A stretch of 64,000 bases of DNA from Sulfuritalea sp. (GTDB lineage: Bacteria; Pseudomonadota; Gammaproteobacteria; Burkholderiales; Rhodocyclaceae): NCBI RefSeq assembly GCF_017302275.1, contig NZ_JAFLDR010000009.1, forward strand, positions 62,001 to 126,000, read 5' to 3'. Below, one piece after another: positions 4,801-23,721 of the stretch. Numbering within the stretch: position 1 is the first letter of the stretch; every line of letters starts with the position of its first letter. Both the position numbers and the translations under genes were made by a program. Below the pieces are notes generated by a model. The model searched no databases. It had not been told where the DNA came from and saw only the letters and a program-made list of their open reading frames with translations.

Positions 4801-4876
4801 GGGTGCTTAGCTCAGTTGGTAGAGCGTCGCCCTTACAAGGCGAATGTCGGCGGTTCGACCCCGTCAGCACCCACCA
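4801..4876 (+). tRNA. tRNA-Val (anticodon TAC)
   Basis: A 76-base cloverleaf. The acceptor stem is GGGTGCT/AGCACCC, the D arm is GCTC/GAGC, the anticodon stem is TCGCC/GGCGA with loop CTTACAA (anticodon TAC at 4834-4836), the T arm has loop TTCGACC, and CCA is encoded at 4874-4876. Its 3' end is the attachment site of the adjoining island: bases 4852-4871 recur at 23702-23721. The last five bases of this copy (CACCA) therefore lie on the island side of the crossover block, and the island restores a complete tRNA. Confidence 0.96.
4852..4871 (+). repeat. attL core (tRNA-Val 3' end)
   Basis: Twenty bases identical to 23702-23721, covering the T loop, T stem and acceptor strand of tRNA-Val. This is the left crossover block of the island. 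Confidence 0.88.
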
Positions 4877-5083: not shown

Positions 5084-6298
5084 ATGGCACTGACCGATAC
5101 CGGCATCCGCGCCGCCAAGGCGACCGACAAGGCTCGCAAGCTGGCCGACGAAAAAGGGCTGTACCTGTTGATTCAGCCAACCGGCGCGAAACTATGGCGT
5201 TTCGATTACCGGTTCGCCGACAAGCGCAAGACCCTGGCGATCGGCACATTCCCCGACACCAGCCTCCGATTGGCGCGAGACAAGCGCGACGAAGCGCGAA
5301 AGCAAATCGCACAGGGTATTGATCCGTGCGATCAGCGCAAGCAGGCCAAGCAGGAGCGCCGCGGCGCCCAAGCCAACACGTTTGAAGTTGTGGCCCGTGA
5401 CTGGATGCGGAACAAGGGGGCGGAATGGACACCCACTTACGCCGGCAAAACGAAATCCGCCCTGGAGCGGCATGCCTTTCCGGCGATCGGTGGGCGCCCG
5501 ATTGCCGAACTTGCGGCCCCCGAACTCTTGGCGATGCTGCGCGCCATCGAAAAGCGCGGCACCGTCGATATGGCCCACCGGGTGCAGCAGCATTGCGGTG
5601 CAATCTTTCGCTACGCCGTCAGCGATGGCAAAGCGATGTCAGACCCGACGCCAAGCCTGAGGGGCGCGCTATCGACCGTCAAGCAGGAACACTATGCCGC
5701 ACTCACTGATCCCGCTGAGTATGCTCAACTGCTGCGCGATATTGACGACTACCGGGGCGAGGTAACGACGAAAGCGGCAATGCAGTTGTTGGCGCTCACG
5801 TTCCAGCGGACGAAGGAAGTTCGCTTTGCGGAGTGGTCGCAGTTCGATGTTGATGCCGCGCTATGGCGTATCCCTGCCGAGGTGATGAAGATGCGCGAGG
5901 CGCATATCGTGCCGCTGTCAAAGCAAGCGATCGCGGTGCTGGATGGGTTGCGCCCGCTGACGGGCAAGGGCCGCCTTGTGTTTCCATCGACCACAAACCG
6001 CGACAGGTCGATTTCAGAAAATACGGTGACATACGCGTTGGCGCGAATGGGATATAAGGGCCGCATGACCGGGCACGGGTTCCGCAGTGCTGCATCGACA
6101 ATGCTGAACGAGCAGGGGTTTCGGCATGATGTTATTGAACGCCAGTTAGCTCACAACGAGCGCAACGCGGTGCGCGATGCTTACAACCGTGCCCAATATC
6201 TACCTGAGCGGCGGACGATGATGCAGCAATGGGCGGACTATCTTGACAAGGTGAAGGCCGGGGCCGAAGTGATCGCGCTGCGCGGCAATGCGGCATAG
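5084..6298 (+). CDS. P4-type tyrosine site-specific integrase
   Basis: A 404-residue integrase that would catalyse insertion into and excision from tRNA-Val. Residues ~1-90 form the DUF4102 arm-binding domain (LYLLIQPTGAKLWRF, IGTFPDTSL), followed by a SAM-like core-binding domain (~100-190). The catalytic domain has Arg242 (QRTKEVRFAEW), His331/Arg334 (TGHGFRSAAST), His357 (QLAH) and the probable nucleophile Tyr367 (AYNRAQY), all intact. A strong purine-rich ribosome site (CGAAGGGGG) precedes ATG 5084. It reads away from the tRNA. The repeats at 4952-5029 lie directly upstream and could let the integrase regulate itself. Confidence 0.96.
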   Translation: MALTDTGIRAAKATDKARKLADEKGLYLLIQPTGAKLWRFDYRFADKRKTLAIGTFPDTSLRLARDKRDEARKQIAQGIDPCDQRKQAKQERRGAQANTFEVVARDWMRNKGAEWTPTYAGKTKSALERHAFPAIGGRPIAELAAPELLAMLRAIEKRGTVDMAHRVQQHCGAIFRYAVSDGKAMSDPTPSLRGALSTVKQEHYAALTDPAEYAQLLRDIDDYRGEVTTKAAMQLLALTFQRTKEVRFAEWSQFDVDAALWRIPAEVMKMREAHIVPLSKQAIAVLDGLRPLTGKGRLVFPSTTNRDRSISENTVTYALARMGYKGRMTGHGFRSAASTMLNEQGFRHDVIERQLAHNERNAVRDAYNRAQYLPERRTMMQQWADYLDKVKAGAEVIALRGNAA

Positions 6299-6894: not shown

Positions 6895-7380
6895 ATGACC
6901 TCCAAACAACAACGCCAGCCGGGACGGGCTGGCGCTGAAGCTACACTTTTCAAACACATCGCCGCCGATAATACCGGCAACACGACCGCCAATCAACGCA
7001 ATTCGCAGGCGGATCGGGGAGTTGTAGCCGACTCTACGGATACGCTCGGGCTCGTTGCTGATTTGCACGACAAGGAAGGCCTCCGGCTTGTTGAAGAGGC
7101 GGTACGGCTGACAGGTGATCAAGAGCTTCGCGGCGTTCTCGAACTGGCGGTGGGCCTTGGTATGCGGTACCTCGTAGCGGCAGGAAGATTTGACGGAAAG
7201 GGCATTTTCAGCGCCCTGTGTGCCGAAGATTCGGTAGCCATCCTCTCTTGGGGTGCGGCGAATGAGCGCATGAACGAAGGCGGCTCGCGCAAGACAGAAT
7301 GGCTGGTTATGCCGGCCCCCTTGATGGCCTTGCTGAACAAGGCTGCGGCGCAACAGGCCACAAAGGGCGGTGCGCAATGA
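6895..7380 (+). CDS. Unknown protein of the island replication operon
   Basis: A 161-residue soluble protein that I do not recognise. The N-terminal ~50 residues are polar and probably disordered (TSKQQRQPGRAGAEATLF, then NTGNTTANQRNSQ). The rest is compact and helical (LHDKEGLRLVEEAVRLTG, LELAVGLGMRYLVAAGRF). It starts four bases after the alpA stop and overlaps the next gene's ATG (ATGA at 7377), so it belongs to the alpA-primase operon. The position suggests a replication accessory or regulatory role. The frame extends back to 6859, but ATG 6895 fits the operon spacing better. Confidence 0.7.
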   Translation: MTSKQQRQPGRAGAEATLFKHIAADNTGNTTANQRNSQADRGVVADSTDTLGLVADLHDKEGLRLVEEAVRLTGDQELRGVLELAVGLGMRYLVAAGRFDGKGIFSALCAEDSVAILSWGAANERMNEGGSRKTEWLVMPAPLMALLNKAAAQQATKGGAQ

Positions 7381-9821
7381 ATGCCCCCATGACCAAAGCC
7401 GAGGCCATTGCTGCTCGCGACGTTACTGAGCTCACCCGCGCGCTGCGTGCGGACCTTACCAAGGGCAACGACAACATTCCCGGCGACCTGAAAAAGCGCA
7501 AGGGCTGGCTGGTATGGAAGGTGACCGAGATCAACCCCGCCACCGGAAAGTTCAACAAGATTCCAATCTACCCCCGCACGCGGAAGAATCGCCATGGCGA
7601 ACAAGGGACCGAGGCGGACCTAGCGAACCTGGGGACTTGGGACGATGCACATAAGGCGATCACCGAGGACAAGTCCATCTCCGGCGTGGGCCTCGCTCTG
7701 CTCCCGGCTCTTGGCGTTGTCGCTCTCGACGTGGATCACTGTATCGAGAGCGGTGAGTTGCGCGACGATGTTGTTCGGCTTACGAACGACACCTACTGCG
7801 AAATCAGCCCAAGCGGGACAGGCATACGTGCTTTTTGGTGCGGCGTTGCCAGTGACGGCAAGAACCATGACGCCGGGTTTGAACTGTTTCACGCCAAGGG
7901 CTTTGTCACCGTAACGGGTAACCAAGTAGAAAACGACTACTACCTGTTCGCCAGCGATGCCATTCCACTGTTGGATGGAACGGCGCAGGCCGAACTGGAA
8001 CAACTCTCGCGCGCTACTGGAAGAATTTCCAAAGTCAGCACGTTGGGGCGACTGAAAGAGACGGCGGCGAGCGATCCCCGCTTGCAGGCCATCAATGCAG
8101 CAGGCCTGTATGAGCGCGACATGGGCGGTGGCAAGCACTCGATCAAGTGCCCGTTCGAGAGCGCGCACAGTGATTGTGGCAGGCCGGGGGGCGACGGTGA
8201 CACCGTCTATTTCCAGCCGCATACCAACAGCTACGCCGACGGCTACATACACTGCTCGCACACCCACGGCAACGATCAGAGCAAGTACTGGGAAGCCATC
8301 GGCTATGACGTTGAGGTGGAAGCGTTTGGGAATCTTGACGCAGGCGAGTGGCCTATACCGCAGCCCATCCCGGATGATCTCCCTCCGGTCCCGCCGTTCG
8401 ATCTTGCACTACTGCCTGATGCGCTGCGCCCATGGATCGCCGACATAGCGGAGCGCATGCAGATTTGCCCGGATATTCCCGCCATCGGCGCGGTAACGGC
8501 GCTCTCGGCGGCCGTGGGCAGGCGAGTGCAGATCATGCCCAAGGCGCACGACGACTGGACGGTGGTGCCGAATTTGTGGGGGATGGTGGTAGCGCCACCG
8601 GGCTACATGAAGTCACCGGCGCTCTCCGAAGTGATGAAGCCACTTCATTTGCTGGAGAGCGAAGCGCATCGGGAATATGAGATCGCGCGGGCCGCATGGG
8701 AGATCCAGAAGGAGTGCACCGCCATTGCCAATAGCGCGGCGAAGTCGGCAACACTTGCCAAGCTGAAGAGAGACCCGGCCGCGGAGATCGCGGCGGCGCA
8801 GCCGGAACCTGATGAGCCTATTGCGATACGGTATTGCGTCAATAACTTTTCGCTGGAAGCATTGGGTGAAGTACTGATGGGCAATCCCCACGGTGTGCTG
8901 GCTTTCAGCGACGAGATTCATGGTCTGCTGATGATGGCGCAAAAGCCCGGCAATGAAGGCCTGAACGACTTTCTTTTGTCAGCATGGAACGGCGACGGCT
9001 CTTTCACTTTCGACCGTATCGGTCGGGGACTGAACAGACGCATAGATCACGTCTGCGTGGCCGTACTCGGTGGCATCCAGCCGGGGCGCCTGGTTGAACA
9101 TGTCACCGGGGCGACTCACGGCGGTGCTGGCGACTCAGGCCTGGTTCAGAGGTTCCAATTGCTGACCTGGCCGGATCTGCGCGAGGAATGGCAACTGGTG
9201 GATAGAAAGCCTGATCGCGATGCACAGGTGGCTGCGTATAAGGTTTTCGAGCAGGCAGTGGGGCGCGGTGATTCAGCAGGCTTTGACACCGGCGGTGAGG
9301 TCGATAGCGGGGTTGATGTGCGGCGCTTCGACCCCACTGCGCAAGAAGCGTTCTATGTGTGGCTAGAGAGGCTGGAGCAGGAGCTACGTGGTGACAGCCT
9401 CCCTCCGGTAATGGCGTCGCACCTGAGTAAGTACCGCTCGCTTGTACCGTCACTGGCGCTGATCTTCGCCGTGGCCGACGGCGTGCAAGGCGCGATCCCG
9501 CTGCGTTATCTCCAGCAGGCTATCGGATGGGCGGAGTACTTGCGGCCCCATGCCGAACGGGTCTATGCCTGTACCACTCGCCCCGATACCCGGCACGCGC
9601 GCGCCTTGCTCAACAAGATTCGTACGGGTGCTATTGCGGATGATTTCACACCGCGCGATGTGTACTTGAAAGGCTGGAGCCTGCTCGACCGCGATGGAGT
9701 AACGAAGGCGGTCGAATTGCTCAGCGACCTTGGTTACCTGCGTTCGGGCCAGAAGCGGCAACAATCAGGCGGTGGACGCCCGTCAATCTGCTACCGGATC
9801 AACCCCAATGCGAAGGGTTGA
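7377..9821 (+). CDS. PrimPol-like/DUF3987 replication protein
   Basis: An 814-residue multidomain protein, probably the element's primase-helicase. Residues ~25-190 resemble the NrS-1-type primase-polymerase fold: GWLVWK, the metal-binding pair D118/D120 (VALDVDHC), SPSGTGIRAF (~144-153) and GFVTVTG. Residues ~225-320 include a Cys/His-rich stretch (CPFESAHSDC, then HCSHTHG) that may bind zinc. Residues ~340-810 are a DUF3987 (YfjI-like) P-loop domain with a degenerate Walker A (APPGYMKSPAL, Lys412) and Walker B LAFSDEIHG. The ATG overlaps the previous stop. A short inverted repeat array follows the stop (9847-9900). Confidence 0.85.
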   Translation: MNAPMTKAEAIAARDVTELTRALRADLTKGNDNIPGDLKKRKGWLVWKVTEINPATGKFNKIPIYPRTRKNRHGEQGTEADLANLGTWDDAHKAITEDKSISGVGLALLPALGVVALDVDHCIESGELRDDVVRLTNDTYCEISPSGTGIRAFWCGVASDGKNHDAGFELFHAKGFVTVTGNQVENDYYLFASDAIPLLDGTAQAELEQLSRATGRISKVSTLGRLKETAASDPRLQAINAAGLYERDMGGGKHSIKCPFESAHSDCGRPGGDGDTVYFQPHTNSYADGYIHCSHTHGNDQSKYWEAIGYDVEVEAFGNLDAGEWPIPQPIPDDLPPVPPFDLALLPDALRPWIADIAERMQICPDIPAIGAVTALSAAVGRRVQIMPKAHDDWTVVPNLWGMVVAPPGYMKSPALSEVMKPLHLLESEAHREYEIARAAWEIQKECTAIANSAAKSATLAKLKRDPAAEIAAAQPEPDEPIAIRYCVNNFSLEALGEVLMGNPHGVLAFSDEIHGLLMMAQKPGNEGLNDFLLSAWNGDGSFTFDRIGRGLNRRIDHVCVAVLGGIQPGRLVEHVTGATHGGAGDSGLVQRFQLLTWPDLREEWQLVDRKPDRDAQVAAYKVFEQAVGRGDSAGFDTGGEVDSGVDVRRFDPTAQEAFYVWLERLEQELRGDSLPPVMASHLSKYRSLVPSLALIFAVADGVQGAIPLRYLQQAIGWAEYLRPHAERVYACTTRPDTRHARALLNKIRTGAIADDFTPRDVYLKGWSLLDRDGVTKAVELLSDLGYLRSGQKRQQSGGGRPSICYRINPNAKG

Positions 9822-9846
9822 TTTTATGGATGCGCCCCACATCAGC

Positions 9847-9900
9847 GCCTACAAAACCTACAGAACCTCATACATCATGGGTTTTGATGGTTTTGTAGGC
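9847..9900. repeat. Inverted ~10-bp repeat array after the primase gene
   Basis: GCCTACAAAACC at 9847-9858 is a perfect inverted match to GGTTTTGTAGGC at 9889-9900. Each arm is made of near-repeats (CCTACAAAA, CCTACAGAA; inverted GGTTTTGAT, GGTTTTGTA). It begins 26 bases after the primase stop and has no T-run, so it is not an ordinary terminator. It may be a replication origin or operator site. Confidence 0.6.
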
Positions 9901-9941
9901 ACTACCCCCTGTCTCGCTTCCAGAAACTCTGAGGGTGCCCG

Positions 9942-11512: not shown

Positions 11513-11574
11513 TCGCTCGCTTCTCCACCCCTGGAAGCCGGCAACGCCGGACATAAAGGGGAATGGAGTTTCAC

Positions 11575-11907: not shown

Positions 11908-11923
11908 CACTTGCGTCAGCACA

Positions 11924-12007: not shown

Positions 12008-12010
12008 AAA

Positions 12011-12463: not shown

Positions 12464-12474
12464 GGAGAACCATC

Positions 12475-12959: not shown

Positions 12960-13245
12960 AACCATCTCCGCGTCCCGCATCGAGGGCGCACTCAAGACCG
13001 GCCTGCCAGGCCTTCTGCGTCGCGCGGAGAACCTCTGCTACCAGTACGAATTGCCGACCAAGCTGGGCACGCTCCTGATCAGCCCTTGCGAGGGCGCCAT
13101 CCGGACGCGCTTCGAGGACGTGCCGCCGGCCGCGCCCTGCGGCGCCAGCCTCAACTCGTACTCGGGCAAGTGGAACTTCGAGGGCCTCGACGACGATGCA
13201 CTGGTCGGTCGGGCCATCTACTGGATTGAAAGGATCGCATCATGA
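12946..13245 (+). CDS. Unknown small protein
   Basis: A 99-residue protein (MRKPKTISASRIEGALKTGL) with an N-terminal basic helical region and a Gly/Pro-rich middle (DVPPAAPCGASLNSYSGKWNFEG). It has two cysteines only. I do not recognise it. ATG 12946 is preferred over the upstream frame start at 12910 because GAGGAT precedes it. It overlaps the next gene's ATG by four bases (ATGA). Confidence 0.62.
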   Translation: MRKPKTISASRIEGALKTGLPGLLRRAENLCYQYELPTKLGTLLISPCEGAIRTRFEDVPPAAPCGASLNSYSGKWNFEGLDDDALVGRAIYWIERIAS

Positions 13246-13790: not shown

Positions 13791-13845
13791 AAGGCCGTGG
13801 TGTATTGACCCGCTTTTCACTACCAGTCCAATTAGGAGCACTGCA

Positions 13846-14190
13846 ATGAATCGACGTAAGTTTGTAGGAACCTCGGCCAGCGCCGGCCTGTTGGCGCTGC
13901 CATCTTGGGTTGTTGCCTCGGTCAATGAGCCGTCCGTGAAGATAACTCGTATTCGGATTGGGCTCGATCGACGCAACCCGCCGCCACCGGATGATGAAAA
14001 TAATTATTGGTCGGAAGCAATCCAGGTTGGCGACCTGTGCTTCTACCGAGCGAAGGGTACAACGGTGGCCGCCTCCAGGCGCGAGATAGCTGCGGTAATA
14101 GGCAACCCATATTTGTACTACTTCACCACTGCCTTGAGACTGCACATGAGAATCAAGTGGGCGAAGTTGGGAATTCCGAGTGATATTTAG
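13846..14190 (+). CDS. Small exported protein with twin-arginine-like signal
   Basis: A 114-residue protein whose start (MNRRKFVGTSASAGLLALPSW) has RRKFVG followed by a hydrophobic stretch and a likely cleavage site after VVAS. That matches a Tat signal peptide. The mature part (~90 residues) is basic, has two short beta-like segments and one Cys, and shows no cofactor motif. ATG 13846 is chosen because it gives the signal; the frame extends back to 13525 inside the previous gene. AT content is higher than in the neighbours. Confidence 0.6.
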   Translation: MNRRKFVGTSASAGLLALPSWVVASVNEPSVKITRIRIGLDRRNPPPPDDENNYWSEAIQVGDLCFYRAKGTTVAASRREIAAVIGNPYLYYFTTALRLHMRIKWAKLGIPSDI

Positions 14191-14262
14191 TCATACAACT
14201 CTCTACCATATGTTGAAGCAATATACCGAGGGCTTGATGGTTCTACTGAACCAATAAATGAA

Positions 14263-14343
14263 GTGGCCCACCTCCCGGGCCGGGGAGATTTGATCCAGAT
14301 TGCCACCCCCGACATCTTGTCAAAGTTGGCTAAACAGGAGAAC
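14263..14343 (+). promoter_or_regulatory. Second radC-type leader
   Basis: GTGGCCCACCTC-CCGGGC-CGGGG, then GATTGCCACCCCCGACATCT, then GGCTAAACAGGAG, matching the leader at 11924-12007 in order and spacing. The repeated leader before an unrelated gene argues for a shared RNA-level control. Confidence 0.5.
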
Positions 14344-14346
14344 GTC

Positions 14347-14712
14347 ATGGAAATACTGAAGCCCGGCACCCTCTGCGTCATAGTCGGGGGTTGTCCCGAA
14401 AATATTGGTCTTGTCGTCGAAGTCATCGAGCACATCGGCGTTGAACCGCCCCGTACCGATGCCTACCTCATCCGCACCACCAGCGGTCGTAATTTCCCTC
14501 AGCTGAAGTTCGGCCGTGGTGAAAAGCGGCTTGCCCCTGGCACTTCCAACGAGGCCATTACCGACCGGCACAAGCTGCGGCCCCTGGTGGATGCCGACGA
14601 CGAGTCGGAGTTGCAAGCTGGCGACCGGAATAAGGTACCCGCACTTCGCAACGAAGATTCGCTGGACCATGAGACCGTGCAACTCGATTCGAGGTGCTGC
14701 TATGTCGAATGA
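14347..14712 (+). CDS. Unknown small protein behind a radC-type leader
   Basis: A 121-residue protein starting MEILKPGTLCVIVGG, with a small beta-rich N-terminal part (GLVVEVIEHIGVEPP) and a polar acidic second half (LVDADDESELQAGDRNK). I do not recognise it. It resembles the 11575 protein in its GLVV core and in having a related leader. GGAG lies ten bases before ATG 14347. Between its end and 14858 I see no convincing gene. Confidence 0.62.
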   Translation: MEILKPGTLCVIVGGCPENIGLVVEVIEHIGVEPPRTDAYLIRTTSGRNFPQLKFGRGEKRLAPGTSNEAITDRHKLRPLVDADDESELQAGDRNKVPALRNEDSLDHETVQLDSRCCYVE

Positions 14713-14858
14713 TACTGTTGCACCGTTGTCAGCAATGCGTTCGACAATCGTGTGTCATTCGATCCGGCACCGTGATCCGGCGTCGTGATCCGATGATTTG
14801 CCTCTCGTCCCGCCTGCGATGCGTTCGGCAGGCGGCCCTTGGGGCGGCCAGCACGGGC

Positions 14859-15101
14859 CTAGCGCTTGCGCTTGGTCGCGGCCAGCTCTGTCTCAATCAT
14901 CCCGACGAGGCCGCTGCCGGTCTGGTTGAGAGCCTTGGCCAACTTGAGGATTGTGGTGAGCGATGGTTGCTGCTGCCCAAGCTCCAGGATACTCACGTAG
15001 GTGCGGCGCAGGTCCGCCTCAAAGCCAAGCTCCTCCTGCGTCAGACCGGCCTCCAGGCGCAATTGACGCAGAACTTTGCCGAAGGCAACTGCTGGCTCCA
15101 A
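14859..15101 (-). CDS. XRE/Cro-type helix-turn-helix regulator
   Basis: An 80-residue repressor-like protein with a single HTH_XRE domain: FGKVLRQLRLEAGLTQEEL, then DLRRTYVSILELGQQQPSLTTILKLAKAL, covering nearly the whole length. It starts at TTG 15101 with GGGAGGG just upstream. Two copies of a 17-base site lie directly before it (15109-15125, 15153-15169), which suggests autoregulation and control of the divergent lipoprotein gene. No toxin-like partner is evident next to it. Confidence 0.88.
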   Translation of the reverse strand: MEPAVAFGKVLRQLRLEAGLTQEELGFEADLRRTYVSILELGQQQPSLTTILKLAKALNQTGSGLVGMIETELAATKRKR

Positions 15102-15108
15102 ATATCCC

Positions 15109-15169
15109 TCCCACTGTTGGAGGAATTAGGCCGGAAGCTTATGATCATGTCGTCCCACAGTTGTAGGAA
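15109..15169. promoter_or_regulatory. Paired operator-like sites between XRE gene and lipoprotein gene
   Basis: TCCCACTGTTGGAGGAA (15109-15125) and TCCCACAGTTGTAGGAA (15153-15169) match at 15 of 17 bases and start 44 bases apart, about four helical turns. The first overlaps the XRE ribosome site. These are likely binding sites of the XRE protein. Confidence 0.6.
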
Positions 15170-15211
15170 CCCTATTTGGGTCGATTCGCCTACTGAACGG
15201 AGTGAATTGCA

Positions 15212-15922
15212 ATGAGTTCTGACCTGTCCCCCATCCTCACCGTAGCAAGAGACATCCTGCGTCATGCGCCAGGTAAAGCCATGCATGCGAACGCCAATTC
15301 ACGAGGTAGCGCCCTTCGTCGCTTCGCACTGGCAATCGCGGTAGCGTCTAGTGTTGGTGGATGCGTGTCCATCGAGCAAGTCAATTCTTCCTTTGCGCGG
15401 GTGGATCAGGTATGGCAGTTGGAGTACCAAAGGACCGAAGATGAATTTCGATATCGTGTTGTCGAAGCTGATTATGAAACGACCCTCCGCGCTGTCCGCC
15501 AGACCTATCTCGACCTCGGCATGCCCATCCAGGTGCAGTCTGGCTCCCGCGGGTTAATAGTCGCCGAAAGCGCCGCACCGACCCCTCTCACGCTCGAAGA
15601 ATGGAAGGAAGTTGTGCGCATCGAAGGCCCACGCGTCAAAGAGATTGGTGGTTGGTACATGGTGATGCGTGATGATCCGAAGGGTTACTTCGTGGCCGTT
15701 AAGGCTACGCTGAGACCAATGCCATCCGGCACATTTGTGCTACTCGACTACGAGCTAGATAACCGAGAAATTCGAGCGATGGGAGTCCGACCTTCGCGCC
15801 ACGCGCCGCCCCACGCCGTGCGGTTGGGCTCGCTAAAGTTTTGGGTGCAATTGGAAAAGCGCCTTTCAGAGGTTCAAGCGCCTGCGCCTCGCCAGCGAAA
15901 GCCGAAGGAAATCGATATCTAA
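15212..15922 (+). CDS. Putative lipoprotein of unknown function
   Basis: A protein of up to 236 residues with a lipoprotein signal: a basic RR, then FALAIAVASSVGG and the lipobox Cys (VGGC, residue 51 from this start, 28 from ATG 15281). ATG 15281 would give a signal of normal length, while ATG 15212 has the better ribosome site (CGGAGTG). The mature part has a small alpha/beta domain (YETTLRAVRQTYLDLGMPIQVQSG, then RGLIVAESAAP) that looks like DUF4810/YbaY-like or BamC-like small folds, without a firm match. It is divergent from the XRE gene and probably controlled by it. Confidence 0.72.
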   Translation: MSSDLSPILTVARDILRHAPGKAMHANANSRGSALRRFALAIAVASSVGGCVSIEQVNSSFARVDQVWQLEYQRTEDEFRYRVVEADYETTLRAVRQTYLDLGMPIQVQSGSRGLIVAESAAPTPLTLEEWKEVVRIEGPRVKEIGGWYMVMRDDPKGYFVAVKATLRPMPSGTFVLLDYELDNREIRAMGVRPSRHAPPHAVRLGSLKFWVQLEKRLSEVQAPAPRQRKPKEIDI

Positions 15923-16052
15923 AAAGCGTTGGCTAAGCAATATCGGCTGTCAAAGCAAATGGAATAATGCCTTCATTCGTCGATATTCCGATTGGCTCAC
16001 GGCAGGATGCGGGCATGAAACGACTTTTCTACAGATTCGCGAGGGCTTTGGC

Positions 16053-16523
16053 ATGACTACTTTTCTGATTGCAGCGGTTGCTACTGTAGCGCTTTGGGTG
16101 CTTGTGCAATTTGTTCGTAACAGCCGCCCTTCGTATTTCTCGGCAAGAGTAAGCGGGGCGCTCTTCGATCTTGGGCTTCAAATCACGAAATTCGAACCTG
16201 TACTAAACAAAATGTATATCGCCGACTGCGTCACTTACTACGAGGCAAATGGCAAGCGTTCGAACCCTTGGGAGATGGCAGCGCGGTTCTTTCTCAAAGC
16301 GGTAATTGAGTACCCGGCATTTGTCGAGCGCGCGGTTATGTTTGATGGCTTTCTTGTTCGCTCCATAAAGGTGGTCAAGTCATGGCGAGGGAAGAAAATC
16401 AACGCCGCTTTCGCAGACGATTTTGTTATTAAGATCAAAACATTTCTCATTGATGGTTTGAAAGATCAGCCAATGCCAGAAGACGAAAAGATCGCTACTG
16501 AAATCATAATTCTGGAGCTATAG
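16053..16523 (+). CDS. Unknown protein with one N-terminal membrane segment
   Basis: A 156-residue protein with a membrane segment at 3-21 (TFLIAAVATVALWVLVQFV) and a cytoplasmic or periplasmic helical domain rich in Phe, Lys and Ile. I do not recognise it. Its codon use and lower GC differ from the core genes, which fits island DNA. It is followed after 27 bases by the gene split by the insertion sequence, so both were probably one membrane-protein operon. Confidence 0.65.
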   Translation: MTTFLIAAVATVALWVLVQFVRNSRPSYFSARVSGALFDLGLQITKFEPVLNKMYIADCVTYYEANGKRSNPWEMAARFFLKAVIEYPAFVERAVMFDGFLVRSIKVVKSWRGKKINAAFADDFVIKIKTFLIDGLKDQPMPEDEKIATEIIILEL

Positions 16524-16550
16524 GGGGGAGCCAACGAATAAAATCAATCA

Positions 16551-16731
16551 ATGGAGGCTTGGGTGAGCGAACTATCTAAATCTAACTATGCGAAGTTCGA
16601 GAGGGAAGACAGTGTCGACTTGAAGATCGAAAAGTGCGTTTCGGTTCTACATACAAAGGGAGTTATAGTCCCGACCCAGATCAAGGACATCCCAGAGTTT
16701 CCGTGCAACGACTTTGATCATCTACAAAAAC
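16551..16731 (+). pseudogene. 5' part of a membrane-protein gene split by an insertion sequence
   Basis: Residues 1-60 of a gene interrupted at 16731/16732. The likely true start is GTG 16563 (GGAGG six bases upstream; MSELSKSNYAKFERED). Removing the insertion sequence and one copy of the 8-base target duplication joins codon 61 (CAA) in frame to the sequence at 18230. The joined protein would be about 182 residues (178 from the GTG). In the present state translation runs into the insertion sequence and stops at 16742. Confidence 0.85.
16724..16731. repeat. Target site duplication, left copy
   Basis: ACAAAAAC, identical to 18220-18227, directly outside the left inverted repeat of the ISL3 element. 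Confidence 0.92.
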
Positions 16732-18219
16732 GGCTCTGTTGAATTTTGAGTGGGTTAAGCGACATGCGGGTTGATCTTCGAGAAGTCGAGCTTGCCGGCG
16801 ATGAGAAATACGACGGCGCGAATGGTCGAGAAGCTGCTGTAGCCGCGCGCCTTGCGCTTGGCGGCCTGGAACAGGCCGTTGATGGCTTCGAGGAAACCGT
16901 TGGTCTGGCGCGTCTGCGTCCAGGCGACGATGCCCTCCAGATGAGAGCGGATCATTTTGGCCACCTCCTTCATTGGCTCGACCTTCGAGCGCATCACGTT
17001 GGTGGCCCATTGCAGCAACATGCCGCGCACGACATTGACCTGCTTACGCTCCAGAATTTCCCGCAACTGCTCTTTGTAGAGCCAGCAGCGTGCCGTTCGC
17101 TTGGTGGTCGCCTGCGCGACCAAGGCGTCCAGATCGTTGCGGGCATCCGCCGCCAGATTCGCCCGATCATGCAACAACTTCCAGCGCAGTCCCTTGAGGC
17201 TCGGATCGGTGCGCTGCTCGATGCGGCGGGTCTTATCGACGGCGGTATTGGCATGAGCGATGACGTGGAACTTGTCGAAGGTGATCTGGGCGTTGGGCAG
17301 GTGCTTGGATACGCCGCTGATAAAGGCCGGCGACATGTCGATGGAGATGGATTCGACCGCCTTGGGATCGCCACCGTGCGCGGTGAAATCGGCGGCAAAG
17401 TTCTTGATGGTTTGGGCATCACGCCCCTCGGTGACGAAGAGCACCCGCCGCTGGTTGGCATCGGCAACCAAGGTGATGTAGTCGTGTCCACGCGCCTTCG
17501 AGGTTTCGTCGGCGGCCAGGCGCTTCACTTCAGAGAAGTCGGCCTGCGCCAGGCTCAGATCGACGTAGCGCTTGCAGATGGCCGTCACCTGGTGCCAAGA
17601 GAGATTCACCAGGCGAGCGACGGCGGTGAAGGTCATCTCGCGGCACAGCGTCAGGATCAGCGCCTCGAACAGCAGCGTGAAGCCGGCAAGTTTCCCCGCC
17701 CAGCCGGGTTCGACCTGGCGAACACCGCCATCAGGCAACTTGACCCGCGGCACGCGCACCTCCAACTGACACTCGTGCTGGAAAAAGTTCAGATGCCGGT
17801 AGCGCTTCGTCACAGTGTCATGCACCGGATGAAGGCCTTCCACACCAGGAACGGCAAAGCGGCTCCCGGCGACAAAGTCCACGGCAATGGTCAGTTCCTT
17901 CTTTCCGGCGTCGAAATCCACGCCGTTGATGAACCATGGATCGGTGATGCCCAGGGCGGCTTCAAACAACTTGGCACTCATGTCTGTCCTGTCACTCTCG
18001 TTTCGGTCGGGCGCGCATCCTACCTGCCTCGCCACTCATCCAAACACCGCTCGGGTCTCTATGGCCGGATGCGTAACAGCGCCGCATCCAGCCATAGACC
18101 AGCGTATCGCCCGATTCCAGGCGTCAAGGGTTCGCTGCGCCGGGCTTCGCCCGCCCTTGACCCCCGGCCTCGGGCTACCGTCCTCATGCACCGTTACCCA
18201 CTCGAAATTCAAGAGAGGC
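16732..18219. mobile_element. ISL3-family insertion sequence, 1488 bp, complete
   Basis: Imperfect terminal inverted repeats of 24 bases lie at 16732-16755 and 18196-18219 (21 of 24 match; GGCTCTGTTGAATTT against GCCTCTCTTGAATTT). An exact 8-base duplication ACAAAAAC flanks it, the size expected for ISL3. One intact transposase gene fills it on the minus strand. Intact ends and identical duplications suggest a fairly recent insertion. Confidence 0.95.
16755..17981 (-). CDS. ISL3-family transposase
   Basis: A 408-residue DDE transposase. Typical ISL3 features: an N-terminal zinc-ribbon-like region, the HTH segment LTLCREMTFTAVARLVNLS, the first acidic catalytic position in RLAADETSKARGHDY, the second in SISIDMSPAFISG, ITFDKFHVIAHAN, and the C-terminal TRQTNGFLEAINGLFQAAKRKARGY with the final Glu. 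No frameshift or stop is seen, so it should be active. ATG 17981 is chosen (AGGAC upstream); the frame continues back to 18035 without a better start. The stop codon overlaps the terminal inverted repeat. Confidence 0.95.
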   Translation of the reverse strand: MSAKLFEAALGITDPWFINGVDFDAGKKELTIAVDFVAGSRFAVPGVEGLHPVHDTVTKRYRHLNFFQHECQLEVRVPRVKLPDGGVRQVEPGWAGKLAGFTLLFEALILTLCREMTFTAVARLVNLSWHQVTAICKRYVDLSLAQADFSEVKRLAADETSKARGHDYITLVADANQRRVLFVTEGRDAQTIKNFAADFTAHGGDPKAVESISIDMSPAFISGVSKHLPNAQITFDKFHVIAHANTAVDKTRRIEQRTDPSLKGLRWKLLHDRANLAADARNDLDALVAQATTKRTARCWLYKEQLREILERKQVNVVRGMLLQWATNVMRSKVEPMKEVAKMIRSHLEGIVAWTQTRQTNGFLEAINGLFQAAKRKARGYSSFSTIRAVVFLIAGKLDFSKINPHVA

Positions 18220-18595
18220 ACAAAAACAATTGCGAGATCGTCACTTGGTACTACAAAGGCTTTCGATTCATCGCGTGTTGTGGATCGAGGAGGCCGTTAC
18301 CGAGCCACATCAAAGTCGTGGTGAATTTCCTATCCTCACAGTCGGGACCACCATTGTCACAGTAGCATTGGCCGCCTTCGTTTCTTGGTGGTTTTTATTT
18401 GCACTTGCTTTGGCTGTATTTCAGTTTTTTCGCTATTCAAGAAAAATTAGCAACAGGTACGATCAGAAAATTATTCACGCCGCCACGTCATCCGAGATGG
18501 CTTTTTGCATGCTTTATAGATTGAAGCAGATCAGCTTAACGACCCCTGACTTTCATAGTGCTTGGTATTGGCAATTCGACTCACAGTCAGAATAA
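18220..18595 (+). pseudogene. 3' part of the split membrane-protein gene
   Basis: After the right copy of the target duplication (18220-18227) the frame interrupted at 16731 resumes: LRDRHLVLQRLSIHRVLW, then two adjacent hydrophobic segments (TTIVTVALAAFVSWWFLFALALAVFQFF) and a short charged tail ending at 18595. The rejoined product is a small inner-membrane protein with a cytoplasmic N-terminus of about 100 residues. No family is recognised. Confidence 0.82.
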
Positions 18596-19214
18596 CGCAT
18601 TGGTTACCCATTTCTATTTCGGCGTTCGGATATTCAGGCGCGTTGGGGAAGGAAGGGGATCTCTTTAGGTGGCGGCCGCAGCTGCCTGGTCCCCTGTCTG
18701 CTCCGTCACGGGCCTTGCAAACAAACCCGCAAGCCCCTCGCCGGCGCTACCGCATCGCGTACTGGACGCCCGCCGTCGCGTTAACAATCGCGCCACGGCT
18801 CTGGGCCTCCGACGACCATCTGAACTCCTGCCCCGCTGCCGCTGCGCCACTGCGCCGACCAGCGGTAGGACTGCTCGCCGGCTTGCGGCTTGCAGGCGGC
18901 TACCTCGTCGTGATCTGAACCACGCCGTCACGCGGTGAAGCTGCGTCACGGCTTTGTCTCTCCTGCTATCGCCGTCCCGCCAGCGCCGACTTTTCCCCTG
19001 GGCTGCCTTGGTCGCGTGCTGCCCGCCGCCTGCGCCGTCGGCGATGAAACAGCGCTTGAGCAGCGTGAAGGCGTAGCGGAATCACGCCCGCGATTCCCGG
19101 CACCCCCTGCTACTCTCGCTACTCTTGCTACCGATCAGCGTTCACGCCAAGCGTCGATAGCAAGAGTAGCAACAGTAGCAACACCCTCTGATGTCGAAAT
19201 CCAATAGTTCACGT
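18596..19214. other. Region without a convincing gene
   Basis: About 620 bases of GC-rich sequence between the split gene and the second primase. The open frames here are short, proline/arginine-rich and lack ribosome sites. The only clear structure is the inverted repeat array at 19109-19182. Confidence 0.6.
19109..19182. repeat. Inverted array of GCTACTCTY repeats at the 3' end of the second primase gene
   Basis: GCTACTCTC, GCTACTCTT and GCTACC run in tandem from 19109 to 19131. After a 25-base spacer the inverse (ATAGCAAGAGTAGC, AACAGTAGCAAC) runs from 19157 to 19182. It starts 33 bases beyond the stop codon of the minus-strand primase (19215), the same relative place as the 9847-9900 array behind the first primase. 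Confidence 0.7.
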
Positions 19215-21716
19215 TCACTCCCGCTCAATCAGCAACGCCGGATTGATCACCACGTTCCGCCGACGGCCGGATTCCTCCAGCCAGGCGCGCCCCCGCTCGG
19301 CCAGGATGACAAGCGCTGCGCGCAGCTCGCGGCTGTCCCGGACGCAATTCGGACCGTATTGGTAGATCCGCTTCGTCGGCACACGATCAGTTCCGTTGGC
19401 CTGCGCTTCGCTACGTAACCAGGAATCGAGCCGGATCGCCGCCGCCAGCGAGGGCGGCGTGTCCAGGTCGGCGAGCAGGCGCCTCGCCTCGTTCAAGTGC
19501 CAGCCCACGATACTGGCCGCGGCGCGGATTTCCTCGGACGTTATCGTTCCGCTCGCGCCATACTCCAGCACATGGAACAAGGCTGCCAGCCGTGCGACGT
19601 TCTCCGCCGCCTTGGCCGCAACATCGCGCACGCCACGGAATGCACCTCGCGCGCCGAGTTCGCGCTCGATCTCGTCGTGAAAGCGTATCCACTCGGCACG
19701 TGCCAGCGGCGACAGATCCAGCACCGCCGGGGTGAGGCAGCCGTGCGCGTCGGTCGCGAGCGGTTGCGCAAGCAGCTCGCGAATGCGCGCCTGGAACAGC
19801 GCCACCTGCGGCATCGCCTCGGGCGCCGGGCGGTAGGCACGCGTGCCTTGCGTGCTCCCGGGCCAGGCGATCAGGAAGCGCGCGATGAATCCGGTGCCGC
19901 GCGGCAGTGTGCCGGCACGCTCCAGGAAGCCGCGCAACGCCTCCGGCTGGACCATCAGCCCAAAGGTCAGCCGCCGGTCGCGCAGCACGAAGGAGGGCTT
20001 GGAGCGCCGGTCGATCGCCATTTCGCCGCCGTCCCACAACACGTTGAGGAGCGCAAGGTTGCGCAGGATCGTGTCCTGGCCCATGCCGTGCGCACCGAAC
20101 ACCGCGCCGGCCTCGGCCGAGAGTACCCCACCGCTCGGCCAACCGGTGGCCAGCGCATGGGCAAGCGCCTCCGGCGTCGCATCGGCATAGAGCAGTCGCG
20201 GGACCAGTGGCGGCTGCGGCGCATCGCCCACCAGTGCCTCAAGTTCGCGTTCCTCGCTCCCCGTGTCCTGCGCCCGGCGCCGCTTGTGCTTGATCGCATC
20301 GAGGATGCCGGCCTTCTTTGCCTCGAATACCGCCGTGGCCGCTTCGAGCTTCGCGATCTCGGGAGACATTTCCTGCCGCGCCCCGGTTTCCCAGTCGCGC
20401 AATGCCGGGCAGAAGATCGCATCGCAGGTGGTCTTGCGTTCCCCGGAGTCGGCCACCGCCAGCAGATACAGGGAAATGGGACCCACGAGCTGATGATCGC
20501 GGCGCACGTTCGCCAGACCCTGCGCCGCGAGCGAAAGGGCTGAAAGGGCCGAGCAGGCCACCAGCGCCATCGGTGCCTGCACGAATCCCTGTGCCTGCCG
20601 TACCGCTTCACGCAGGATGTGCGGCAGCGCTTCGTCGGGATACGGCTGCGCGTCCAGCGGTTCGGTCAGCGGTTCGGGCTCCGGCCATTCCCTGGCTCTC
20701 GCCTTGGCGACGACGCCCATATCGAGAACGTCCTCTGCGGTCGCTTTGGCGGCCGCGATCGAAGCGCGCACGGCCTCAAGGCCCCGGACCCGGTAGAGGT
20801 CATTGAAGTCCGTCGCGCCGGCTGGACGATCCGCGCCAAACACCGGAACGGCGACGCGCGCACCGACCTCGCCGGCGGCAGTGCGCGCATGGGCGAGACC
20901 CGGATTGCCCGGAGTGCCCTCGTCGTCATCGGCGCACACGATGAGCTGCGACTCTGGATAGTTGTCCCTGATCGCTCTGGCGACCGGGGCCAGGTTACCG
21001 GCGTTGAAGGCAACGGCGACGGCGTACCCGGTTGCCGCGTGAATACTGGCGCCCGTGGCGTAGCCCTCGGCGATGCAGATCACTTTGCCGGCGACGCCGA
21101 TCAGGAAATACAGGCCGGCGACCCGCCCGCCCTTCAGGAATCGCTTCGTGCCGCTCGCACCAATAAATTGCAGGCTGTGCAGCTCGCCGGCCGCGTCGCG
21201 GATCGGCACGAGCAACGCCCCCTTGAACACGCGCAGCCCATGCGCAACGACTTCCTTGCGTGCCAGGTACGGATGCGCATCGCCTACCGGCCGCGCGGCG
21301 TGCCAGATCCGTGCGGCGACCTCACGCGCGGCGGCGTGGCGCCTGATCGCTTCGTCCGTCCGTCGGGCGCTGGCTGCCTCCGCGTTCCTGCGCAGCGCAT
21401 CGAGCTCCGCCGGCGTCAGCGCGCGCCCGATGTCGACGCGCCAGGATTCCCAGCCCTTGCCGTCGCGCCAGTTATCCAGTCCGCCGGCGGGAATGCCGTC
21501 CAGGTGGAGCAGGTAAGCCGCATCGCCCTTGCCATTCTTGCCCGCGACATCGCAGCGGTGAATGCTGCCGTCGGCGATGATGTTCGCGGGCGGAACGATG
21601 TCGCGCGCGGCGAGTGCCGCCCGAAACTGGTCAATGACCTCTGCCGTGGTGAGTACCGGCGCCAGGCACGTCCGCCCGGCCGTTGCAGGTGTGGGGCAGC
21701 CATGCATTCGCGGCAT
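19215..21716 (-). CDS. Toprim/DUF3987 primase-helicase
   Basis: An 833-residue replication protein, the second of the island. The N-terminal ~180 residues include DNWRDGKGWESW and the HPYLARKEV motif common in phage/plasmid primases. The Toprim domain has Glu217 (CIAEGYATGASIHAATG) and the acidic triplet 263-265 (VCADDDEG). The C-terminal DUF3987 P-loop domain carries a degenerate Walker A (LLAVADSGERKTTCDA) and AEAGAVFGAHGM. The start ATG 21716 overlaps the alpA stop (TAATG), so translation is coupled. It differs from the first primase in using Toprim rather than a PrimPol-like N-terminus. Confidence 0.88.
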   Translation of the reverse strand: MPRMHGCPTPATAGRTCLAPVLTTAEVIDQFRAALAARDIVPPANIIADGSIHRCDVAGKNGKGDAAYLLHLDGIPAGGLDNWRDGKGWESWRVDIGRALTPAELDALRRNAEAASARRTDEAIRRHAAAREVAARIWHAARPVGDAHPYLARKEVVAHGLRVFKGALLVPIRDAAGELHSLQFIGASGTKRFLKGGRVAGLYFLIGVAGKVICIAEGYATGASIHAATGYAVAVAFNAGNLAPVARAIRDNYPESQLIVCADDDEGTPGNPGLAHARTAAGEVGARVAVPVFGADRPAGATDFNDLYRVRGLEAVRASIAAAKATAEDVLDMGVVAKARAREWPEPEPLTEPLDAQPYPDEALPHILREAVRQAQGFVQAPMALVACSALSALSLAAQGLANVRRDHQLVGPISLYLLAVADSGERKTTCDAIFCPALRDWETGARQEMSPEIAKLEAATAVFEAKKAGILDAIKHKRRRAQDTGSEERELEALVGDAPQPPLVPRLLYADATPEALAHALATGWPSGGVLSAEAGAVFGAHGMGQDTILRNLALLNVLWDGGEMAIDRRSKPSFVLRDRRLTFGLMVQPEALRGFLERAGTLPRGTGFIARFLIAWPGSTQGTRAYRPAPEAMPQVALFQARIRELLAQPLATDAHGCLTPAVLDLSPLARAEWIRFHDEIERELGARGAFRGVRDVAAKAAENVARLAALFHVLEYGASGTITSEEIRAAASIVGWHLNEARRLLADLDTPPSLAAAIRLDSWLRSEAQANGTDRVPTKRIYQYGPNCVRDSRELRAALVILAERGRAWLEESGRRRNVVINPALLIERE

Positions 21717-21940
21717 TAGGTCGACGGCCGGCCGCCGGCTCGGGCGATCTTCACCCGGGCGGCGATCCACTCGCTCACGTCCGACTCCAGCCAGCCCACC
21801 GCGCGTGGCCCGAGCGGCACGGGCTTCGGGAAGACGCCGTCCTTGATGTACTGGTAGATGGTGCTGCGCGAAAGTCCTGTGCGCGTCTGGACCTGCCTGC
21901 GTCGAAGGAAGGCTGGCTCACGCTGGATTGATTGCGTCAT
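21716..21940 (-). CDS. AlpA-family transcriptional regulator, second copy
   Basis: A 74-residue AlpA protein: AFLRRRQVQTRTGLSRSTIYQYIKDGVFPKPVPLGPRAVGWLESDVSEWIAARV, a clear winged helix with the PKPV-x-LGPRAVGW signature. ATG 21940 follows GAGG; the frame extends back to 21979. It is co-translated with the Toprim primase. It is not a close copy of the AlpA at 6669, so this is an independent module, not a duplication. Confidence 0.93.
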   Translation of the reverse strand: MTQSIQREPAFLRRRQVQTRTGLSRSTIYQYIKDGVFPKPVPLGPRAVGWLESDVSEWIAARVKIARAGGRPST

Positions 21941-22043
21941 TTTTGTAACCTCGTGGCTCGTAGTGGAAGACAGCACCATCCTTCCACGTCACGCGGCCCT
22001 TGTGAGCCCGAATCGGAGCCTCGATGAAGCCCCGAAACTCCAT
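21918..22043 (-). CDS. Possible 41-residue protein upstream of alpA
   Basis: An open frame MEFRGFIEAPIRAHKGRVTW that ends 23 bases inside the alpA start region. It has reasonable composition and beta-strand character, and a real small protein translationally linked to alpA is possible. No ribosome site is obvious and no family is known to me. Confidence 0.25.
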   Translation of the reverse strand: MEFRGFIEAPIRAHKGRVTWKDGAVFHYEPRGYKNDAINPA

Positions 22044-22793
22044 TGACACTGGGAAGGACTTGGTTCTCGGCAGTGAAACGCCTGCGGCCATCAGTGCGGC
22101 GAGATTCCCGGTTATCCACGGGCCGATGCGTGCGGCCCCTCTCTGGCACGCGCGGATCGGGCGGTGGGTAACCGGGTTTGCTCGAATGATTCCGCGTCCG
22201 ACCCTTGCGCAGAGAGCAGATCTTGGCGAATGCTGCAAGCCGATTTGAGGCTTTGCTGGAGCACCAATTTGACGTGCTACGCGAAACAAAGGATCCGATT
22301 GGCGCTGCATGCCCGCGGTTCCCAAGCGGGTGATCCCGGGAACTCTCCAGAGGCGACTCGGTCACAACGTTGATTGTAAAGGTGGCTTCTTCAGCCCGCT
22401 TGATGCCCGTAAGCGCATCGCCCTTGCTCGCACCGTCGAGCGCCAAAGCCGGACTCATCTCCTGGAAGCCGGCGGCCGCAAGGCACGGAGATAGACGTAA
22501 GCCCGTAGTCAAAGTCCGCACAGCATCCAGCCAATTTGCAACGGCTGACGTTCTACCGCGACCCCGCTCGACAAGTACGCGGTCGCAATCAAGCTTCACC
22601 CGCATTCGCGCGTGACAGCCCTACTCAACCGCCCCAGCGGCACCCTCTGCTTCAATCAGCACTGTTCTGCGCCAGGCGTGCCGCGTGTGGCATACACGAG
22701 GCAGGATCGCGCCGACCAATCGCATTGGCGCCCGCCAGTGCGATTCCTGCTGCAACGCTGGCCGCGCCAAACAGCAGCAGTTCTGCGCCAATC

Positions 22794-22917
22794 GCGTCGT
22801 CACTACCGCGGCGCGAGCCGGTAGTGACGACGCGCTCAATGCCCCAGCCGACAAGGCTTCCCGGTCGCTGGCGCAAGTGACGACCCCAAGTGACGGGCTC
22901 CCTGACCCGTCGTCATG
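22794..22917. repeat. 15-bp perfect inverted repeat with AGTGACGAC iterons
   Basis: GCGTCGTCACTACCG (22794-22808) and its exact inverse (22819-22833) are separated by ten bases. Further copies of the inner motif follow: AAGTGACGAC 22875-22884, AAGTGACGGG 22888-22897 and an inverted CCCGTCGTCAT 22906-22916. There is no T-run. It could be an origin, resolution or regulatory site. Confidence 0.6.
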
Positions 22918-23515
22918 CTGGACCGCGCAATACGGTCCTTCTACTTGCCCGCTCCCTGCGGGCTCAGTCCGAAGCAGCGCCGTAGGGGCGCACCCCTGAG
23001 TCCTGGGTCAAGGGCTCATCTCGACGAATCGGCTTCCCACAGGAAGCGCCGTCGACGCCAATGCCGCGCGCCGCGGTGGCCAGCAGCAAAGCAAACGGCA
23101 CGAAACGGGAGTGGTGTCCCGGGTCCCTCGTACCTCCCGCCACGCTTAGGCGTTCGGGACGGACAGAAACACTTACCGGACAGGCTTCACACACCAGCAT
23201 CAGAGTAAAGGGCAGCAGCAAAGAGCAGAAGGAAAGGGACGGAAATATTGGGGCAACAAATGGAGGAAAGGAATTGAACCTGGCGAGGACAAGTTGCTGC
23301 GAAGTCAGATCGCTGTTAGCACTGCTGACGCTGCGCAGCGGCGCATCGCTTTCGGGAATCAGAATTTGTACGGCCGCTTTCCGGCAGTGAATTCCGAAAG
23401 GTGACGGTCTCTTCCGTGCCCATAACGGTCGGTGGACGAAATCGGGAGCGGCCATTCGCCAGGAACGGGGAGATCGGGGAAGCGGCCATTCGCTACCGGT
23501 GGTCAGTCAGCGGGA

Positions 23516-23540
23516 AAGTCGGCGCTGGCGGCACGGCGAT
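23516..23540 (+). repeat. Dispersed repeat, copy 1
   Basis: AAGTCGGCGCTGGCGGCACG followed by GCGAT. Related copies lie at 28839-28868 (minus), 33712-33731 and 50627-50651, and a near-identical string is inside the fleR-like gene (60325-60345, minus). Confidence 0.6.
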
Positions 23541-23630
23541 AGATGGAAGCGGAAGAGCAAGCATTCGCGCCAAGATAATAGCCCCCCGCTGCTATAATTC
23601 TCGAATTGACTATAGGTTGCCGGTCTTCGC

Positions 23631-23651
23631 CGACGGTATATTTGACGGTAT
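23631..23651 (+). repeat. Right-end TGACGGTAT repeats
   Basis: CGACGGTAT at 23631-23639 and TGACGGTAT at 23643-23651, 50 bases before attR. They match the left-end cluster at 4952-5029 and are candidate integrase arm sites. Confidence 0.6.
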
Positions 23652-23701
23652 TCTTGGTTGGTGGGTGCGGGTTAGCCTCTGGTAGCAACGGTTTCAGGCT
23701 A

Positions 23702-23721
23702 GGTTCGACCCCGTCAGCACC
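23702..23721 (+). repeat. attR core
   Basis: Exact copy of 4852-4871. It continues as ACCACC where the tRNA has CACCA. Allowing one missing C the match would run five bases further, so this end may carry a single-base deletion in the displaced tRNA 3' end. Confidence 0.85.

Follow-up and report, generated by a model that had tools for sequence, protein, structure and literature searches.

We analyzed a 64,000-nt stretch of the genome of Sulfuritalea sp. (contig NZ_JAFLDR010000009.1, positions 62,001 to 126,000; hereafter the window), in which a genomic island carries the gene of a Toprim and DUF3987 primase-helicase, P0001. Just behind the stop codon of this gene lies a short inverted array of 9-bp repeats. 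We propose with good confidence that these repeats are iterons bound by the C-terminal winged-helix domain of the preceding primase-helicase, and that they most likely form its replication origin when the island is excised. The features on which the proposal is built are the following.

19108..19180, no strand: inverted iteron array with a period of 9 and the layout 9-9 ... 9-9, from the repeat search
19215..21770, minus strand: P0001, Toprim and DUF3987 primase-helicase of 851 aa counted from a GTG start (Pfam)
19356..19376, minus strand: P0001 residues 799-805 (TKRIYQY), a short helix with K800 and Q804, from covariation and a structure model

On the plus strand, GCTAC cores start at 19109, 19118 and 19127, and the inverse units start at 19157 (ATAGC), 19166 and 19175 (both GTAGC). 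The two arms (19108-19134 and 19154-19180) are 27 nt each, 89% complementary and 19 nt apart, Tandem Repeats Finder reported a period of 9 for both halves, and the near end of the array lies about 33 bases beyond the stop of the minus-strand P0001 gene. These measurements bear out the first-pass annotation of this DNA, which had described tandem GCTACTCTY units followed by their inverse just past the stop of the Toprim/DUF3987 gene. A detector of inverted tandem 5-mers called four sites in the window, namely this array and three G+C-rich ones (CGACG, GGCGG and CGGCG). A search of positions 18900-19300 against Rfam gave no match. The array and its immediate flanks are kept among six close relatives (counting the window), whose DNA diverges farther downstream.

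Arrays of this kind also stand behind related genes. In a family survey (150 genomes searched, 57 with a match, 30 loci), the seven best loci, including the window's own copy, all had inverted arrays about 35-60 bases past the stop, with GCTAC, GCTAA or GCGAC cores. Related loci were also collected by scanning species genomes with alignment A1 (the best 80 of 515 confirmed stretches) and from IMG/VR (17), which gave 97 loci, or 96 usable ones without L127, whose match is cut by a contig end. An inverted tandem array was called within 300 bp past the stop in 77 of the 96 loci and within 200 bp in 75; elsewhere in these loci, 17 of 3187 windows of 200 bp have one. Arrays with at least six copies occurred in 62 of the 96 post-stop stretches versus 4 of the 3187 other windows. 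Dinucleotide shuffles of the 200 bp behind the stop in these relatives gave arrays in 4 of 1920 cases and none of 1920 with at least six copies; chance was set aside as the source of the array. Spacing is mostly 9 bp, the layout seen most often (in 32 cases) pairs a 6-9-9 arm with a 9-9-6 arm, and the cores vary among loci (GCTAC, GCTAA, GCTAT and GCGAC). A set of regularly spaced short repeats next to the gene of the initiator is one property expected of an iteron origin, and it was found here.

It had been supposed in the first-pass annotation that DUF3987 primases have their own iteron right downstream, and a check of the 300 bases behind homologues had been suggested, with a majority of loci lacking arrays as the outcome against it. 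Such a majority is absent among the closer relatives, where the 77 positive loci and the covariation with the protein described below uphold the idea. As a rule for all DUF3987 genes it does not stand, given the Escherichia coli gene yfjI discussed below and a phylum-wide sample. This sample covered 397 genomes, 60 of which had a match, and comprised 80 rows, two being the window's own genome; 68 rows were taken in, or 67 without L201, which is too short, and 10 were left out, including G159:C20 and G218:C79 (contig end). An inverted array stood behind 21 of the 67 genes and an inverted or direct one behind 40 (controls, 5/664 and 27/664), and neither kind stood behind 27. Cores in this sample included CTGAC, CCGAC, GGGAC, GTGCC and TCGCA, and spacing was again mainly 9 bp. 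In locus L199, whose primase C-terminus reads CANCANCANCA, repeat units apparently lie both behind the stop of the DUF3987 gene and within its own 3' end.

The core of the array varies in step with particular residues of the preceding protein. Alignment A2, which holds the window and 76 loci (77 rows), was drawn from 86 candidates by omitting near-identical loci and some with unusual C-terminal tails; residue numbers below are those of its reference, to which 375 is added for P0001. Sixty-seven rows have one of four cores (TAC, GAC, TAT and TAA), three have other labels (L043, L091 and L121) and seven have no label. Among 395 columns compared over the 67 loci, the seven most linked to core type lay at residues 424-430 and 454, and nine of the top ten lay in the C-terminal domain, which holds 74 of the 395 columns. 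The column score was by far the highest at residue 429 (z 31.8), followed by residue 425 (z 15.2). Residue 429, which is Q804 of P0001, is Gln in all 45 GCTA loci (TAC 29/29, TAT 8/8, TAA 8/8) and Arg in 21 of the 22 GCGAC loci. Residue 425, which is K800 of P0001, is mostly Arg or Lys when position 5 of the core is C (21 of 29 TAC and 21 of 22 GAC loci), Asn in seven TAC loci with a mixture of C and T in the array, Thr, Pro or Asn when position 5 is T, and Ala or Ser in seven of eight TAA loci. Arginine with guanine and glutamine with an A:T pair are usual contacts. Residues 425 and 429 vary separately, as two separate contacts would give.

This link recurs in independent lineages. On a tree built from the helicase part only (394 columns, 68 rows), the core and residue 429 each switch 19 times, and independent pairs on supported branches agree in 13 of 13 cases (p = 0.00024), with L079, which has Asn at 429, outside these Gln/Arg pair tests. 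Because the core call of L043 is weak (one word only, in an array of another kind), the test was repeated without it; 12 of 12 pairs agreed (p = 0.0005), and 11 of 11 when eight long-branch rows were also dropped (p = 0.001). A held-out set of 117 non-redundant proteins outside A2 (61 with a core call, 56 without), whose source is not wholly separate in that it includes some loci omitted from A2, contained 49 calls with T or G at position 3, and 44 of these agreed: T occurred with Gln in 28 of 31 (the rest Lys, Arg and Thr) and G with Arg in 16 of 18 (the rest Lys and Glu). The 12 other calls (six C and six A at position 3), which include evident mis-calls such as L280, were not counted. At residue 425, the 61 calls gave Arg 25, Asn 5, Lys 3, Ser 2, Gln 1 and Thr 1 when position 5 was C; Ser 5, Ala 1, Arg 1 and Gln 1 when it was A; Thr 4, Asn 3, Ser 3 and Arg 1 when it was T; and Arg 5 when it was G. 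Further combinations also occur, with GCGAA paired with A425 and R429 (L030; L025 by eye) and GCGAT with N425 and R429 (L121, in A2). Recognition of the repeats by their cognate initiator, another property expected of an iteron origin, is indicated here through covariation. Many iteron origins also have DnaA boxes close to the repeats. These results support the view that the core would be read by the C-terminal domain of the preceding primase, with a strong link at residue 429 and a weaker one at residue 425.

An AlphaFold2 (AF2) model of P0001 residues 376-851, built from the 77-row alignment, reached a predicted local distance difference test score of 93 and a predicted template modeling score of 0.87. 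We take residues 398-467 of the model (A2 numbering) to be a winged helix from the order helix-strand-helix-helix-wing. Residues 425 and 429 lie one turn apart on the helix 424-430, which precedes the helix 438-450. In this model, P0001 combines an ATPase/helicase part with a C-terminal winged-helix domain, as do proteins of the type of P4 alpha and of Rep from the Staphylococcus aureus pathogenicity islands (SaPI). By sequence it falls outside their family, since its Pfam matches are DUF3987 and Toprim only, and a search of PDB sequences with the A2 profile found no credible relative. Most of the best PDB matches in Foldseek were chains from MCM complexes (template modeling scores 0.2-0.4; only the best match, with E 3e-4, was below 0.001), and the AAA+ part is perhaps MCM-like, which we regard as a lead and not as proof.

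We also compared closely related loci along their DNA, using 13 pairs picked by eye from the tree, of which nine differ in core and four have the same core. In the pair L097/L103, an identity of 0.85-0.96 gives way, 200 bp ahead of the stop, to 0.45-0.68 as far as +300 and returns to 0.79-0.92 up to +700; in L100/L107, it is 0.80-0.95, then 0.46-0.61 to +100, and then 0.79-0.88 to +500. In both pairs, the domain and the array have been replaced jointly as one block of 300-500 bp. Identity falls at the same place without clear recovery in L088/L064, L052/L079 and L112/L114, and shows no sharp drop in four other pairs with differing cores (L052/L081, L051/L077, L111/L077 and L062/L073). In the last of these, identity is 0.72-0.79 over both the array and the final 200 bp of the gene, and all recognizable cores have G in one locus and T in the other, matching Arg or Gln at residue 429. 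No same-core pair (L055/L106, L053/L070, L080/L098 and L100/L116) shows a steep fall over the final 200 bp of the gene; in L055/L106, identity goes down to 0.46 in the first 100 bp past the stop.

Because the 3' end of the gene encodes the DNA-binding domain and the target follows directly, an exchange can move both as a single specificity cassette. On balance, we favor a broader reading of these data, in which the gene end and the array together form an exchangeable cassette whose code can be read (position 5 from residue 425, position 3 from residue 429). The origin and compatibility group of many uncharacterized integrative islands and plasmids would then be predictable from sequence, and close replicons would switch group by a cassette swap or by concerted point changes.

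Plasmids and viral contigs carry similar arrangements. In Salinibacter ruber, the circular plasmid pSR11 (11.5 kb) contains a single Toprim and DUF3987 gene; TTGCA-type units just past the stop of this gene form an inverted array around an AT-rich center, as read by eye. Pfam recognized no other replication protein among the nine pSR11 ORFs (open reading frames) scanned, five of which had no match at all (eight small annotated genes were left out). The strict detector calls nothing behind the primase in the plasmids RHOAph (L132) and pBT01 (L131), where repeats are seen by eye; in RHOAph, a linear, phage-like 10.7-kb plasmid of Rhodovastum with a DUF3987 gene, a long near-perfect inverted repeat lies directly past the stop by eye. 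An array with eight copies of CTTAA was called in the Psychrobacter plasmids pA37P2/pA52P5. These plasmids and the Bartonella plasmid pBT01 are uninformative on sole use because they also carry RepM or RepC. A 19-kb plasmid of Pseudomonas putida (L128) was rejected as a case of inverted layout; its TGTCGCC repeats run one way by eye, and the detector calls none.

A scan of viral contigs with P0001 as a single protein gave no match. Scanning them for the array first gave 10 stretches, of which six lie behind DUF3987 genes, all six with the expected residue (three of these contigs are already in A2). No DUF3987 gene was seen in the stretches L224, L226 and L230. In L228 (1-364), an array of TGCTAC units lies 43 bp past a VapE-type gene (PF05272). 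VapE-like genes gave 17 matches, of which the 10 best were examined, one lacking downstream sequence and one having 76 bases only; the strict detector calls two of nine, and others, including L293, L295, L297 and L299, look repeated by eye. Downstream iterons may extend to the VapE-type family.

The array is very probably a binding site of the primase, because its core tracks residue 429, independent switches and held-out loci agree, and blocks are exchanged jointly. A role as the replication origin of the primase is the most likely one, and this prediction is based on the precedent systems compared below and on pSR11, which has no other recognized replication protein. In the mechanism that we propose, the C-terminal domain would read the core TGC-N3-A-N5 of each 9-bp unit; N3 would be set by residue 429 (Q804), and residue 425 (K800) would contribute to N5. 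The inverted half-arrays, whose anatomy is observed, would carry two opposed sets of subunits. An AAA+ part that is perhaps MCM-like would then open and unwind the DNA at the array, and the Toprim part would prime, as their domains suggest. We note only as a suggestion that on B-DNA each 9-bp step misses a full turn by about 51 degrees, which is near the 60 degrees of a hexamer.

Several observations weigh against this interpretation. The 96 loci are close relatives by choice, the 80 from species genomes being the best of 515, and 19 of the 96 have no called array, although several of these show degenerate arrays by eye. The gene yfjI of E. coli K-12 has no array within 200 bases past its stop, by eye or by the detector (L263), and the strict detector calls no array on pSR11 (L133). 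The link between residue 425 and position 5 is the weaker one (8 pairs, mean 5.9 agreeing, 0 opposed, median p 0.03). At residue 429 there are exceptions, namely L138 (GCTAT with Arg), L007 (GCTAC with Thr), L287 (GCTAT/C with Lys), L120 and L135 (G with Lys and Glu) and L079 (GCGAC with Asn). The covarying residues lie on the helix before the one that would usually read the DNA; in a winged-helix fold this is the later helix, here 438-450. AT content rises slightly, from 37-43% upstream to 47-49% at the array, and is 42-46% downstream (62 arrays), without a clear AT-rich opening element. Finally, 68 of the 77 arrays lie inside an ORF of at least 60 aa, many of them with an ATGA start over the primase stop.

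This last point bears on two rival explanations. If bound by the primase, the array could be an operator for autoregulation or for control of the downstream gene, and not an origin. It does stand at the start of the downstream ORF in most loci, and covariation indicates recognition and not purpose. However, the array lies behind and not before the primase gene, pSR11 has no other recognized replication protein among the nine ORFs scanned, and the protein has a Toprim primase domain together with a predicted helicase domain (PMC5862659). In addition, the same place is the origin or putative origin in SaPI, in the staphylococcal cassette chromosome mec (SCCmec) and in pRN1 (PMC7581432, PMC4234260), so that we consider the operator unlikely. 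The other rival takes the repeat to be a feature of the protein encoded by the downstream ORF (Ala-Thr / Val-Ala), 9 bp being three codons, and the same overlap of ORF and array speaks for it. This idea is largely refuted and keeps almost no probability: the window and nine relatives (L032, L033, L035, L036, L039, L043, L048, L086 and L093) keep the array without such an ORF, core switches hit both arms though the encoded residues differ (Ala-Thr/Val-Ala in L097, Ala-Asn/Leu-Ala in L064), and the core tracks the primase.

We also considered the possibility that the array acts as a hairpin, either as a terminator or as a single-strand priming site like the stem-loop origin of pRN1, which lies downstream of the pRN1 primase gene (PMC4234260). 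The arrays score far lower than shuffles in single-strand folding (mean z -7; 30 of 62 arrays), as inverted repeats would give, but this carries no verdict on such a role because any inverted repeat folds so. In the 32 arrays of 6-9-9/9-9-6 layout, complementarity between the arms is 0.91-1.0 at the cores (partly by selection) and 0.16-0.66 at the bases between them, and the low values between cores argue against a paired RNA stem. Moreover, some arrays are direct (L128 by eye), the phylum-wide sample has more stretches with direct than with inverted repeats, the cores track winged-helix residues and there was no Rfam match; a hairpin role is therefore quite improbable. Joint exchange of the gene end and the array, which is observed, could also link core and residue by hitchhiking without any contact. 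This is more improbable still, given that the same residue occurs with the same base in diverged, independently switched lineages, that residue 429 stands far above its neighbors (z 31.8 against 15.2 at 425), and that L062 and L073 differ in step at Gln/Arg and T/G without an exchanged block. We therefore retain iterons bound by the preceding primase-helicase, most likely as its origin, as the explanation of the array.

The island that carries P0001 extends over about 4852-23721, as bounded by two copies of a 20-bp repeat, and lies between lon and a gene with SurA_N/rotamase domains. Its other features are listed here.

4852..4871, plus strand: attL, a direct repeat of 20 bp (GGTTCGACCCCGTCAGCACC) within the 3' portion of tRNA-Val (4801-4876)
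5084..6298, plus strand: tyrosine integrase of the island (Pfam)
7299..9821, plus strand: P0002, a second DUF3987 protein of 840 aa without a Toprim match (Pfam)
9844..9903, no strand: inverted array of P0002, core CCTAC(AAAA), period 9
16755..18035: ISL3-type transposase
21716..21979, minus strand: AlpA-type regulator directly upstream of P0001 (PF05930, E 7.9e-23)
23702..23721, plus strand: attR, second copy of the 20-bp repeat GGTTCGACCCCGTCAGCACC

P0001 matches Toprim_3 (E 7.8e-11) and DUF3987 (E 6.2e-95), and both P0001 (318.9 bits) and P0002 (264.2 bits) belong to the DUF3987/YfjI family PF13148 (cut-off 27). Its true start may be M19 or M22 (about 21707-21716), because the listed start overlaps alpA. 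The first-pass annotation had called the two primases of the island unrelated, which proved incorrect: both have DUF3987, with 25% identity over 424 aligned positions, and it is their N-terminal halves that differ. It had also noted a like array behind P0002 (at 9847-9900), and this is indeed present at 9844-9903, with 24-nt arms that are 83% complementary and a period of 9 in the left half by Tandem Repeats Finder; the strict 5-mer detector, run over the 64-kb window, misses it. Among the top four relatives of P0002 besides itself (L165-L168), the detector calls one array and the other three show inverted repeats by eye.

G+C content around P0001 (19000-22000) is 67-69%, whereas the remaining 1-kb windows of the island have 50-63%, and the P0001 module therefore probably arrived separately from the rest. 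It faces P0002 from the other end of the island, so that there are two replication modules, probably of different origin. A similar arrangement is seen in the viral contig L232, where two DUF3987 genes with GCGAC (R429) and GCTAC (Q429) cores each have a matching array behind them. The word AAAGTCGGCGCTG(G) occurs twice in the window (18980-18993, minus strand; 23515-23528, plus strand) and also in L004, L005 (twice), L007, L097, L103 and L266. In L004 and L097 it encodes Lys-Val-Gly-Ala of the downstream ORF, and one L005 copy lies inside the primase gene. One window copy, about 115 bases beyond the array at 19108-19180, is perhaps a relic of the downstream ORF that is retained in relatives.

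Our literature search, which covered few subscription journals or preprints, found no description of these arrays or of the residue code. An initiator with iterons behind its own gene is a known kind of system; its DUF3987 version, the geometry, the code and the cassette are undescribed so far as this search shows. DUF3987 proteins are common on islands and plasmids, with no origin assigned in the literature found. With a constant position, a 9-bp geometry that is largely fixed and a recognition code, the origins of many uncharacterized mobile elements would become predictable. The system would also be a natural example of an initiator and an origin changing specificity together, testable with existing natural variants.

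The P4 origin differs from the arrays described here in layout and repeat unit. The alpha protein of satellite phage P4 resembles P0001 as a Toprim primase with a DNA-binding domain, which binds the origin repeats before unwinding and priming (PMC4234260), although by Pfam it is not of the same family. In the same source, the crenarchaeal plasmid pRN1 requires a region within 166 bp downstream of the gene of its primase (ORF904), which has a C-terminal winged helix; its origin is a stem-loop, explicitly without iterons, unlike the arrays here. DUF3987 itself has been described as a predicted helicase of mobile elements, in proteins whose C-terminal winged helix might recognize origins (PMC5862659). 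The PICMI satellites of Vibrionaceae share the set of integrase, AlpA and primase (DUF3987/DUF5906 in the search model), and deletion of prim lowers their circular/concatemeric copy number, so that the primase is needed for full copy number (PMC10803314). Compared by description only, they differ in that the portion cited mentions no downstream origin. According to PMC7581432, SaPI Rep binds iterons right behind its own gene through its C-terminal domain, and Cch2 of SCCmec binds a putative origin likewise placed, also through its C-terminal domain. These two share with P0001 an initiator helicase and short repeats directly downstream of its own gene. However, they belong to another protein family by Pfam, and the P0001 type is distinguished by inverted arms with 6-9-9/9-9-6 spacing, a primase fused to the presumed helicase, and an array that usually lies inside an ORF.
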